Assembly: GCA_012271265.1 (NCBI GenBank) | Contig: JAAXGQ010000045.1 | Coordinates: 1-49,345 of the forward strand | Length of the DNA stretch: 49,345 nucleotides | From: Vicinamibacteraceae bacterium | GTDB taxonomy: Bacteria > Acidobacteriota > Vicinamibacteria > Marinacidobacterales > Marinacidobacteraceae | Reading direction: 5' to 3' | In this document: in pieces, positions 6,611 through 49,345 of the stretch | How the letters are laid out: each line of letters starts with the position of its first letter | Position numbering within the stretch: the stretch's first letter is position 1 | Notes under the pieces: model-generated | Seen by the model: the letters and a program-made list of their open reading frames with translations, nothing else | Told to the model about the DNA's origin: nothing | Database searches by the model: none | Program-made: the position numbers and the translations under genes

Positions 6611-6633
6611 GCGAACTCTCCAGGCACCAGCCA

Positions 6634-6666
6634 GGCGCCGGCCCGTACGGGCCGGCGCCTTTTTTT
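6634..6666 (+). terminator. Rho-independent terminator
   Basis: Perfect stem GGCGCCGGCCC-GTAC-GGGCCGGCGCC followed by TTTTTTT, 24 bp after the receptor stop codon. Confidence 0.95.
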
Positions 6667-6694
6667 GTTTGCATTCTGTTCAGGGGGCATGACC

Positions 6695-14875: not shown

Positions 14876-15115
14876 CCGGACGCACGGAGCGGCGGCTCCA
14901 TGGAGCGCCGGCGTCCTCGCCGGCCTGCGCCACACCCTCGATCCCTGAACCAGTCTCGTGCCCACCGCGCCGCCGTGCCGACCGACCCTGGGCCGGTGAG
15001 GACACCGGCGCTCCATGCGGGCACTGGCCGGTGAGGGCACCGGCGCTCCAGGACTGGCGCGCCCTGACGTACGGAGCGTCGGCCCCATGGAGCGCCGTAG
15101 CGGGGCGTCAGCGCT
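14876..15115. repeat. Palindromic repeat cluster B at a convergent gene junction
   Basis: CCATGGAGCGCCGGCGTCCTCGCCGGCCTGCGCC and inverse GGCCGGTGAGGACACCGGCGCTCC / GGCCGGTGAGGGCACCGGCGCTCC. Confidence 0.85.
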
Positions 15116-29136: not shown

Positions 29137-29649
29137 ATGTGGCATCACCCCGGACGCGACGAATGCGCCCCCTACTACCAGGACGTGATCCGGCTGGTAC
29201 CCGAGGGGCACCTGGTGAAAACCGCGGTGGCCGAAATGGTGGCGCTTCGCCGTCTCCTCGAGGGTGTCGGGGACGAGGCGGCTTCCCGAGGCTACGCGCC
29301 GGGGAAGTGGTCGATCAAGGAGACCGTCGGCCACGTCGCGGACGTGGAACGGATCATGGCGGTCAGGGCCCTCTGCTTCGCCCGCGGCGAGCAGGCCCCG
29401 TTCCCGGGGATGGACCAGGACCCGTACGCCGCGATGGCCGCGCACGGGAAGCGTTCCCTGCCCTCGCTTCTCGATGAGTTGGAGTCGGTGCGGGGGGCGA
29501 CGGTCAGCCTGATGCGCTCGTTCGGTCCGGAGGAGCTGGCCCGCACCGGAACGGCGAGCGGCTTCGGCTTCACGGTGCGCGCCCTGTGCTTCCACACCGT
29601 GGGCCACGCGATCCACCACCGACGCATCATCGCGTCGCGCTACCTCTGA
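29137..29649 (+). CDS. DinB family protein
   Basis: YAPGKWSIKETVGHVADVERIMAVRALCFARGE...HTVGHAIHHRRIIASRYL. Confidence 0.88.
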   Translation: MWHHPGRDECAPYYQDVIRLVPEGHLVKTAVAEMVALRRLLEGVGDEAASRGYAPGKWSIKETVGHVADVERIMAVRALCFARGEQAPFPGMDQDPYAAMAAHGKRSLPSLLDELESVRGATVSLMRSFGPEELARTGTASGFGFTVRALCFHTVGHAIHHRRIIASRYL

Positions 29650-30898
29650 GGCCGGCAAGTCCCGCCGGGCGAATCCGGGCGCTCCACAGGAGGGTCCCGG
29701 CCCCGAGCGGGAGGAGGCCCACGGCTGCCGCGGTCCACGCGACGCCGGAATAGCCGACCGCGGCCATGAGGACTCCGGAAGCCGCGCTCCCCGACGCGGC
29801 CACTGCCCAGTTCAGGGAATCGGCGCGACGCTGCCGGACCAGCTTCCCGGCCGGATCCCCGCCGCGCGCGAGAACGGTGCTCGCCGCCACGAAGGCCAGA
29901 CTCCAGCCCAGCCCCAGGAGGGCAAGCGCCACGCCGAGCGATACCCCGACTCCCGGTGTCAGCGCCCCCAGCAGCCCGGCAGTCACGACCGCTGCCCCGC
30001 CGCCGAGCACCACGATCGCCGGACCGAGCCGGTCACAGAGCCAGCCCACCACCGGGGCCAGGCCGAACATGCCGAAAACGTGGCCCCCCATGATCACGGC
30101 GAGCGCGTCCAGCGAGCCGCCCCGTCCCATGACCACGACCGGCGTCATGGTCATCATGAGCATCATCGCCGCCTGCGCCCCCACCATGGCGACGACGGCG
30201 GCGGCGAGGCCAGGCGCTGACGGGCCGGACGCCGTCGCCGGTCCCGGCGGGGGCAACGCGGGCCGCGGCGGGCGAAACGCGGGTCGCGGCCGGGCGCGGA
30301 GGGCGCGGACCCGCCGCAGCGACCGGCTACGGAAGAGAATCACCGCGCAGGCACCGAAGAGGAGCGCCGCCGCGAGATAGGCCAGCGGGATCGAGGCATT
30401 CCCTGAGGAGCCGGCCAGCCGCCCGATTCCGCCGAGGAGGACCGGCCCGGCAAAGCTGCTCACCGCGGCCATCCACACGACAAAGCCGATGGCCCGACCC
30501 TGGCGGCGAGGCGGGAAGAGCAGCGCCGCTGCGAAACGGATCAGGTGGTACGCGGCGTAGCCGGCGCCAAGCAGGACGGCACCCCCGACATAGACGAGAA
30601 ACGGAGCGCCGCGCCAGGCGGCAAAGGCCGGCACGAGCGCAGCCGCCGCGGCAACGCCAAGACCGAGACCGAAAGCGGCTGGCCGGCCGAGACGCGGGAT
30701 CATGCGGGAGATCAACGGCGTGCCGAGGGCCATCCCCAGGGTGATCAGGGCGGAGGGAACGCCGATCCACACCGAGCCTGGCAGGTAGCGGGCGGACAAC
30801 ACCGGCGTCACCGTGATGACCAGCAGGAAGCCGGTGGAGGCGAGCACCGCGACGCCGAGCAGGACGACGAACGCCCGGAGCGGCGCCCGGAGCGGCAT
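29627..30898 (-). CDS. MFS transporter
   Basis: About 12 TM segments; AFVVLLGVAVLASTGFLLVITVTPVL, SALITLGMALGTPLISRMIPRLGRPAAFG. Confidence 0.85.
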   Translation of the reverse strand: MPLRAPLRAFVVLLGVAVLASTGFLLVITVTPVLSARYLPGSVWIGVPSALITLGMALGTPLISRMIPRLGRPAAFGLGLGVAAAAALVPAFAAWRGAPFLVYVGGAVLLGAGYAAYHLIRFAAALLFPPRRQGRAIGFVVWMAAVSSFAGPVLLGGIGRLAGSSGNASIPLAYLAAALLFGACAVILFRSRSLRRVRALRARPRPAFRPPRPALPPPGPATASGPSAPGLAAAVVAMVGAQAAMMLMMTMTPVVVMGRGGSLDALAVIMGGHVFGMFGLAPVVGWLCDRLGPAIVVLGGGAAVVTAGLLGALTPGVGVSLGVALALLGLGWSLAFVAASTVLARGGDPAGKLVRQRRADSLNWAVAASGSAASGVLMAAVGYSGVAWTAAAVGLLPLGAGTLLWSARIRPAGLAGLRGSATR

Positions 30899-30927: not shown

Positions 30928-32079
30928 CTACGGGGCTCCGTCCAGCGCGAAGCGGGCCGCGAGGTCAGCGAGAGCCCGGCGGGACGCGTCGCCGAGGCCA
31001 CGCCCGCTGCCAAGGGCTTCCTGTTCCCCCGGGGAGAGTCCGACTTCGGCGGCCCAGGCCTGGAACTCCTCGAGGGCGTCGTCGCCGGGGCCGACCCGCC
31101 AGGCCCCGTCCACGAGCCGCAGCTCATGCAGCGGCGCGCCCCCGGCCTCCTGGACCCGTTCCCGGAAGGCCAGGACTTCCGGAAGGACGAAGTCGTCCAT
31201 CGTTCCGACCACCTCGATCACCGGAATACGGAGCGCGGCCGGGGGGGCCGGGAGGACAGCGGCGGGCCCCGTCGCCACCGCGTCGAAGAAAGGCCAGAAG
31301 CGCGCGCCCCCGGAGCCGGTGCCCGCGGCCTCCTGGTAGCGGGCGCGGGCTTCGTCCGACTCCCGCCAGCGCTTCGCCAGTTCCAGACGGGTCTCGCGGC
31401 GGCGGGCGGCCGACGCTGGATCCCCGAGGTTGGCCGACACCAGCACTACGCCGTCGAAGGTGGGCTCGGCTGCCGACGCGGCGTAGCGGGCCAGTCCCCC
31501 GCCCTCCCCGTAGCCGAAGAGCACGAGGAAGTCGGGATCGCGCGCGAGGCGGGGCCGCACCTGGTCGAACATGAGGCGCGCAAAGGCCTCCACCAGGCGA
31601 TGGGCTTCGGGACCGGTTCCGAGTCCGGCCCGATCCAGGCTGGCCCAGGCAAAGCCCTGGTCAAGCGCCCACATCCCGACCAGGTCGTCGAGTTCGGTCG
31701 CGCCGCTGCCGAGCATCCGGCCTTCGGCGCCGCGGCGGATTCCCCCAACGCCCCGATGGGCGCCGATCACCAGCCCGCCGTTCCAGTCAGGCGGCCGCAT
31801 CGGAAGGCGGAGAACGAAGGGGCGGGCCGGCTCGCCGGTCGGCAGGGCGCGTCCGGGCGGCACCGAGGCGGCGAAGCCCTGCACCATCAGGGCGTCGCCG
31901 TAGGCGCGTCCGGGCAGGAGGGTCTCCCGGCCGGCGTGGATGTACAGATGAAGCCGGGCGTCGCATCCTGAGAGCGCGAGAGGCAGCAACGCTGCCGCGA
32001 GCAGGAACGGCACCCGCCGCGGCGCGGCCGGGCGCGAGGGACCGCGCGGAGGTCGGGAGCGGAAGGCCTCGCCGTACAC
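30928..32079 (-). CDS. Alpha/beta-hydrolase-fold-like lipoprotein, GxSxG elbow replaced by GYGEG
   Basis: Lipobox ALSGC; DFLVLFGYGEGGGLARYAASA; WNGGLVIGAHRGVGG. GTG start at 32079 preferred (GGGAG 6 nt upstream); in-frame ATG at 32118 is an alternative. Confidence 0.65.
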   Translation of the reverse strand: MYGEAFRSRPPRGPSRPAAPRRVPFLLAAALLPLALSGCDARLHLYIHAGRETLLPGRAYGDALMVQGFAASVPPGRALPTGEPARPFVLRLPMRPPDWNGGLVIGAHRGVGGIRRGAEGRMLGSGATELDDLVGMWALDQGFAWASLDRAGLGTGPEAHRLVEAFARLMFDQVRPRLARDPDFLVLFGYGEGGGLARYAASAAEPTFDGVVLVSANLGDPASAARRRETRLELAKRWRESDEARARYQEAAGTGSGGARFWPFFDAVATGPAAVLPAPPAALRIPVIEVVGTMDDFVLPEVLAFRERVQEAGGAPLHELRLVDGAWRVGPGDDALEEFQAWAAEVGLSPGEQEALGSGRGLGDASRRALADLAARFALDGAP

Positions 32080-32082
32080 AGA

Positions 32083-32211
32083 AACTCCCGAGGTCCCTGG
32101 TGAGGCTTCAGGCCTCATGCAGCGCGCTGGGCCGGCAGCAGGGGTCGCGAACGACCCGATCCGGATCCGGCCCCGCTGACCTGCCTGGGAGTGGTCAGGA
32201 CCTCGGGAGTT
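32083..32211 (-). ncRNA. Candidate structured cis-regulatory RNA (leader) upstream of the alpha/beta-hydrolase-like gene
   Basis: Minus strand: P1 AACUCCCGAGGUCC (32211-32198) with GGACCUCGGGAGUU (32096-32083), 14 bp perfect; P2 UGACC/GGUCA (32197-32193/32181-32177); P3 GGGCCGG/CCGGCCC (32173-32167/32135-32129) enclosing GGGUCG-UUCG-CGACCC (32157-32142); P4 UGAGGC/GCCUCA (32117-32112/32106-32101). Confidence 0.6.
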
Positions 32212-32251
32212 CGTCCGGTTGCGTCGGGGATTGGTCCGGCGGTGCGTTCAT
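32195..32251 (-). CDS. Candidate 18-codon upstream ORF / leader peptide MNAPPDQSPTQPDELPRS
   Basis: AAAGGGGGTCGGAA-ATG; the last codons GAA CTC CCG AGG TCC TGA cover the 5' strand of stem P1. Confidence 0.4.
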   Translation of the reverse strand: MNAPPDQSPTQPDELPRS

Positions 32252-32293
32252 TTCCGACCCCCTTTGTGAACGAAGGTTTCTGCCGACGGGTCG

Positions 32294-32324
32294 GTTATAG
32301 CACAGTCCGCAGCGTCCGCGTCAA
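32294..32324 (-). promoter_or_regulatory. Sigma70-like promoter
   Basis: Minus strand TTGACG (32324-32319), 17-19 nt spacer, TGC-TATAAC (-10 at 32299-32294) just downstream of the amidohydrolase stop. Confidence 0.65.
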
Positions 32325-49017: not shown

Positions 49018-49345
49018 GATCCATGGAGCGCCGGCCCCATGGAGCGCCGGCGTCCTCGCCGGCCTACGCCGCACCCTCGGTCCCCAAGCCAGTCTCCTGC
49101 CGACTCCGCCGCACCATGGAGCGCCGGCGTCCTCGCCGGCCTACGCCGCACCGCAGGTCCCTCAGCCAGTCTCCTGCCGACCGCGCCGCCACATGGAACG
49201 CCGGCCCCATGGAGCGCCGGCGTCCTCGCCGGCCTACGCCGCACCGCAGGTCCCTCTTAGAGGCAGTCCCCTGCCGACCGCGCCAACGTGCCGACCGACC
49301 GTGGACCGGGAGGCCCACGGTCCATGCCCGCCTCCGGCGGTGGCC
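49018..49345 (+). repeat. Palindromic repeat cluster D
   Basis: Three copies of ATGGAGCGCCGGCGTCCTCGCCGGCCTACGCCGCACC (cores at about 49041, 49118, 49211; spacings 77 and 93 bp) and a terminal block CGACCGACCGTGGACC...CATGCCCGCCTCCGGCGGTGGCC matching cluster A (about 78-128). Confidence 0.9.

Follow-up and report, generated by a model that had tools for sequence, protein, structure and literature searches.

The minus strand of the window, which is the whole stretch of 49,345 nucleotides of DNA analyzed here, carries a structured leader in front of two genes that probably share an operon. The first encodes a predicted lipoprotein of the alpha/beta-hydrolase type (positions 30928 to 32118, minus strand) with the lipobox LALSGC and the start codon ATG 32118, which is conserved in the sister genus; its matches to Hydrolase_4 and Abhydrolase_1 were weak and below the cut-off. 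The next gene encodes an MFS transporter (29627 to 30898, minus strand; PF07690, E = 1e-20). Comparison of homologous sequences strongly supports the assignment of this region as a cis-regulatory leader with an upstream open reading frame (uORF) ending on the closing helix P1 of a three-way junction. The leader may be a uORF-controlled transcription attenuator of the hydrolase-MFS operon, a reading in which our confidence is about even.

All sequence letters given in a preliminary description of this region were found in the window. Upstream on the minus strand is a promoter-like pair of hexamers (32294 to 32324), TTGACG at 32324 to 32319 and TATAAC at 32299 to 32294, separated by 19 nt. This pair, previously named as an independent promoter, stayed under the strict cut-off of the promoter scan, but its letters were present and its position was kept in 9 of 9 homologues. 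It is followed by the Shine-Dalgarno site AAAGGGGG (32258 to 32265), which is identical in the seven genomes of the sister genus and reads AAGGAGG in the third genus, and by the uORF of 18 codons, MNAPPDQSPTQPDELPRS plus stop codon (32251 to 32195), which was confirmed as described. The UGA at 32197 to 32195 adjoins the 5′ arm of P1, which consists of the last uORF codons (AACTCCCGAGGTCC, 32198 to 32211), while some early codons of the main frame lie in the 3′ arm (GGACCTCGGGAGTT, 32083 to 32096). The arms form the reported closing stem of 14 bp with 100% complementarity and a spacer of 101 nt. With the first 260 bases excepted, no other internal inverted repeat in the window had perfect 14-bp arms and a spacer of up to 150 nt. 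P1 encloses the P2 arm (32119 to 32184), with GCAG/CUGC plus GCG/CGC at its base, and the hairpin P3 (UGAGGC-CUGAA-GCCUCA, 32101 to 32117), which has the main AUG at its foot. P1 is followed by a U-rich tail with GUACG (UUUCUGUGUACGGC, 32071 to 32084). Folding of a region of 271 nt gave a value 2.55 standard deviations under that of dinucleotide shuffles (z = −2.55), and 2 of 200 shuffles matched it.

The homologues showed which of these parts are conserved. The start region of the uORF (32 nt, 97% identity, M[TN]APPD) was matched in a DNA search of 60 genomes in seven genomes of the sister genus, and a protein search located the hydrolase orthologue in the same seven genomes plus one of a third genus (L017 in genome G002). 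The leader precedes the orthologous gene in all eight of these further genomes of the family, so that every family member found to possess the gene (9 of 9, three genera) has the leader; relatives with named records were metagenome-assembled genomes of Acidobacteriota. The nine loci have in common the promoter-like hexamers (consensus TTGAC[ACG], a spacer of 18 to 19 nt, TA[CT]AA), three parts of the uORF region (Shine-Dalgarno site, ATG, and APPD residues), P1, P3, and the tail. By eye, the gene upstream of the leader differs in the third genus, which indicates that the leader travels with the hydrolase gene. More distant relatives of the hydrolase were present elsewhere in the class, as indicated by the protein search, and a similar leader was not seen by eye upstream of those outside the family. 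A search of a viral collection revealed no relatives.

The proposed check by homologues and covariation agreed with a conserved fold: promoter, uORF start, and the P1/P2/P3 three-way junction recurred, and P1 displayed compensatory changes. When the core sequences were folded singly, P1 and P3 appeared in 9 of 9 with a structured arm between them, and the same P2 base was found in eight, the exception being L013. In folds of the whole leader, P1 was kept in 8 of 9, all except that of the third genus. Consensus folding of the nine homologues gave a P1 pairing of 98.5%, and sliding the partner by 1 to 3 columns decreased pairing from 94% to between 34% and 56%. Double compensatory changes occurred at four adjacent P1 pairs (16-132, 17-131, 18-130, and 19-129) in three lineages, with one in the window, one in two genomes of the sister genus, and three in the third genus. 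For the whole structure, five pairs with double changes were counted versus a shuffle mean of 1.7 (2 of 500 shuffles reached five), and seven double-change cells versus a mean of 1.9 (0 of 500 reached seven), in a sample of nine sequences from about four independent lineages, with the P2 base of the window misaligned by 2 nt in alignment A2. The closely related pair L015 and L014 differed by a double change in P3 from G-C to A-U.

Leader conservation together with the covarying fold excludes chance as an explanation. A perfect inverted repeat could also be a DNA-level feature, such as a spaced operator or a mobile element with inverted ends, and a dispersed repeat of about 165 bp adjoins the leader in one family genome. 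The leader was, however, present in a single copy, occupied the same position in nine genomes, had paired changes in its arms, and carried the U-rich tail on one side only. A DNA-level feature or a chance repeat is thus a very improbable reading, which the comparison has largely refuted. A mobile or repeated element had been considered separately and was discarded because the leader is single copy in its own genome. The repeat of about 165 bp stands directly after the leader tail in L013 (G001:C55:44401-44580), in frame with the gene, and one copy is immediately upstream of the leader in G005. It had 31 to 47 matches in each of 7 of the 8 genomes of the sister genus searched, 6 in the other one, and 15 in the genome of the window. 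Repeated palindromic units of the type GAGCGCCGGCGTCCTCGCCGGCC, resembling extragenic palindromes, were seen at positions 1 to 260, 14899 to 15100, and 49027 to 49240 of the window.

The compact, conserved three-way junction with its covarying closing helix could indicate a riboswitch-like leader that binds a ligand or protein, with the junction as sensor, P1 as switching helix, and an incidental uORF. This is unlikely because the loops and arm lengths vary: the loops were unconserved, including a variable P3 loop, and the P2 arm measured between about 33 and about 70 nt. The apical P2 hairpin GGGUCG-UUCG-CGACCC existed in the window genome only, and the apex of P2 varied among the relatives and was short in the third genus. 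The segment ACUCCCAGG in the P2 loop, for which a mutually exclusive pairing with the 3′ arm of P1 had been suggested, was present in no relative, so this alternative fold is not a conserved feature. In the comparison with Rfam, no family matched at the gathering score or at E values up to 5. A covariance model was trained on the same nine sequences, so its recovery of these loci is by construction; it identified the leader at one gene per genome, a strong second site in no genome, and, with strict filters that diverged copies could escape, zero leaders in 183 further genomes from the class. A riboswitch core would be expected before several genes. Moreover, the uORF start was as strongly conserved as the junction, leaving a low probability for a sensor of this kind.

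With respect to the main start codon, the preliminary description had placed it at GTG 32079, with the GGGAG of the 3′ arm of P1 as its Shine-Dalgarno site. This pair was not conserved. Upstream of GTG 32079, the frame remains open and takes in ATG 32118, and the equivalent of the GTG is out of frame or missing in the sister genus. In L014 and L015, the ATG in P3 is the sole in-frame ATG, GTG, or TTG from the uORF stop codon to the lipobox. The third genus has ACG in place of the ATG in P3; here, an ATG located 18 nt beyond the terminal G-run of P1 is the natural start. The nonconserved GTG and these start positions indicate that the 3′ arm of P1 is not a conserved masker of a Shine-Dalgarno site. 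Of the riboswitch- or leader-peptide-type translational control proposed earlier, the cis-regulatory leader and the uORF ending on P1 were thus retained, and sequestration of a Shine-Dalgarno site was not.

Another form of translational control is the main rival to the attenuator and nearest to the idea of the preliminary description. P1 and P3 may mask the start region (ATG 32118 and the first codons), and ribosomes finishing the uORF may open P1, with coupling or reinitiation across P2. The main ATG is located within P3 and lacks a Shine-Dalgarno site; uORF stop codon and AUG are both at the junction, bridged over about 77 nt by P2; and many phyla, Acidobacteria among them, are proposed to use reinitiation after leader ORFs (PMC4833913). 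A distance of about 77 nt is, however, well beyond the optimum of 10 to 16 nt between stop and start (PMC4833913). The third genus has ACG in P3 and its start past the G-run, yet keeps P1 and the U-rich tail, and the conserved U-rich/GUACG tail would be left unexplained. Control of this type is possible but clearly less probable than attenuation.

The uORF itself gave information about the signal. In addition to its start, its end, DE[FL]P.. before the stop codon, is conserved in the genus of the window and the sister genus, and its UGA adjoins the 5′ arm of P1 in both, so that its position relative to P1 suits an attenuator; in the third genus, a UGA exists at the equivalent place, and the uORF as assembled terminates about 40 nt ahead of P1, at codon 15. 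This uORF contains a GGGGG run, and with one G less its frame reads ...FPDEFPEP to the UGA at P1; the run may reflect a genuine change or a fault of the assembly. The uORFs have lengths of 18, 26, and 40 codons, differing by multiples of three. Between the subgroups of the sister genus, differences at the three codon positions of the uORF interior numbered 8/12/9 versus 13/3/58 in the gene. This lack of a protein-type constraint indicates that translation itself, and not the peptide, is likely the signal. The selected trait seems to be passage of the ribosome, with a possible pause at Pro-Pro-Asp. EF-P is reported to keep intrinsic terminators from acting prematurely on polyproline messages (PMC5021804), and the conserved Pro-Pro-Asp near the uORF start could, as the motif suggests, pause ribosomes ahead of a terminator. 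Two further candidates were rejected. A fusion of uORF and main frame by frameshifting did not agree with the frame relation, which is −1 in L010-type leaders versus 0 in L014 and L015, where it is interrupted by the UGA of the uORF. Masking of the uORF Shine-Dalgarno site by an upstream CCGACCC/GGGUCGG pairing could be drawn by eye in three genera and was lost in minimum-energy folds.

The remaining part of the leader is the tail after P1, which scored in the top 0.02 to 0.4% of window positions in 9 of 9 homologues and contains a GUAC identical in all nine. The GUACG is in differing reading frames in the genus of the window and in the sister genus and is located upstream of the start codon, thus noncoding, in the third genus, which indicates conservation as a nucleotide sequence. 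The covariance model also had weak matches in the sister genus, which proved to be short GC hairpins located past stop codons and carrying the tail UUCUUCCUUGUACG. A pattern of G-run, U-rich tail, and GUACG had 28 matches in the family genomes versus 1 in the reversed control; most of these were GC hairpins of 12 to 13 bp located 40 to 75 nt past stop codons, which are gene-end terminators, with the leader among the others, and not all are independent because many trail paralogous genes. A second tail pattern added four more places with the same tail on unrelated hairpins behind other genes; it had 16 matches versus 14 in the control, and all 16 true matches were preceded by a hairpin. Since the conserved U-rich/GUACG tail is like that of the gene-end terminators, P1 with its tail is probably best read as an intrinsic terminator, and the GUACG part perhaps serves as a polymerase pause.

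As observations in their own right, the GC hairpins of intrinsic terminators in the sister genus (L057-L063, L066, L067, L069-L111), some of which are unrelated, were trailed by a common tail of a U-tract followed by UUGUACG. Open frames of about 475 amino acids precede many of these terminators (L058-L063, L066, L067, L071, L074, L082); their products have C termini with K/Q/E-C-x-x-K-like motifs and resemble a large paralogous family. At positions 6633 to 6668 of the window, a textbook terminator with a central GTAC is formed by a perfectly paired GC hairpin, GGCGCCGGCCCGTACGGGCCGGCGCC, and a TTTTTTT run after it.

In the attenuator as proposed, the polymerase would start at the conserved promoter, and P2 and P3 would fold first, bringing the arms of P1 together. 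Closed P1 plus the U-rich/GUACG tail would act as an intrinsic terminator and halt transcription at the start of the hydrolase-MFS operon. A ribosome at or near the UGA of the uORF would cover the 5′ arm and keep P1 open, allowing read-through by the polymerase. With the uORF unloaded, or with a ribosome pausing early, for instance, at the conserved PPD of codons 4 to 6, P1 would form and transcription would terminate. This model agrees with the good Shine-Dalgarno site of the uORF, the main ATG having none. We infer termination at P1, the direction of the switch, and a signal that would be ribosome arrival or pausing instead of a defined ligand. A hairpin competing for the 5′ arm of P1 was strong in the sister and third genera and weak in the window, and it may tentatively be regarded as an antiterminator from the folds.

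Several points are against the attenuator. The P1 loop of about 65 to 105 nt is far above the usual size for a terminator, the tail contains only 3 to 5 consecutive U residues, the uORF of the third genus stops early, and the competing hairpin is weak in the window. Moreover, a ribosome on a uORF of 18 codons may be gone before the 3′ arm of P1 is made. A standard terminator scan of the leader detected nothing. Alternatively, P1 may be a fixed premature terminator that yields a short stand-alone RNA or a micropeptide mRNA, with the operon transcribed mainly from another promoter and no switching, since promoter, Shine-Dalgarno-led ORF, and terminator-like end would form a complete unit of 200 to 300 nt. 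In the genus of the window and the sister genus, however, the terminator extends over the beginning of the main frame, and a functional peptide is unlikely because the interior of the uORF showed no constraint at the protein level; a fixed terminator is accordingly improbable.

In the pyrBI/pyrE-type attenuators, translation of a leader prevents formation of an intrinsic terminator. These and the mef(E)/mel-type attenuators are the closest working analogues of an attenuator at this leader. The same principle is described for mef(E)/mel (PMC4335068). As in these systems, a short ORF led by a Shine-Dalgarno site overlaps or adjoins an arm of the putative terminator, and the position of the ribosome would set termination; unlike there, up to about 100 nt separate the two arms, with two helices as a bridge, and the leader has no known inducer and no demonstrated sequence homology to them. 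The leader ORF, the putative terminator, and a hairpin competing for its arm (in the sister and third genera) also recall the trp, his, and leu attenuators, but these control biosynthesis, and here a hydrolase and a transporter would be controlled. Membership in the trp/his type fails because a regulatory codon run is absent, with just one Pro-Pro pair, and membership in the erm/cat type because a masked Shine-Dalgarno site before the start is absent, the conserved ATG having none. It is conceivable, although rather doubtful, that the leader represents a new architecture of ribosome-gated attenuator in which the closing helix of a junction serves as the terminator and the junction as a timing spacer, with a ribosome at the UGA as the gate after a pause at Pro-Pro-Asp and the lineage-specific GUACG aiding the stop.

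Premature terminators upstream of genes were predicted in Acidobacteria in a screen from 2010, almost none with an associated function (PMC2965389), and the leader resembles these candidates as a putative attenuator upstream of an acidobacterial gene. Attenuators of Acidobacteria are almost wholly uncharacterized; the fold of this leader is supported by comparison, and its putative gate is clear and testable. Translation of the leader appears to have been retained while the peptide of the uORF drifts. The terminator-tail signature of a U-tract followed by UUGUACG suggests an aid to annotating transcription ends in these uncultured bacteria.
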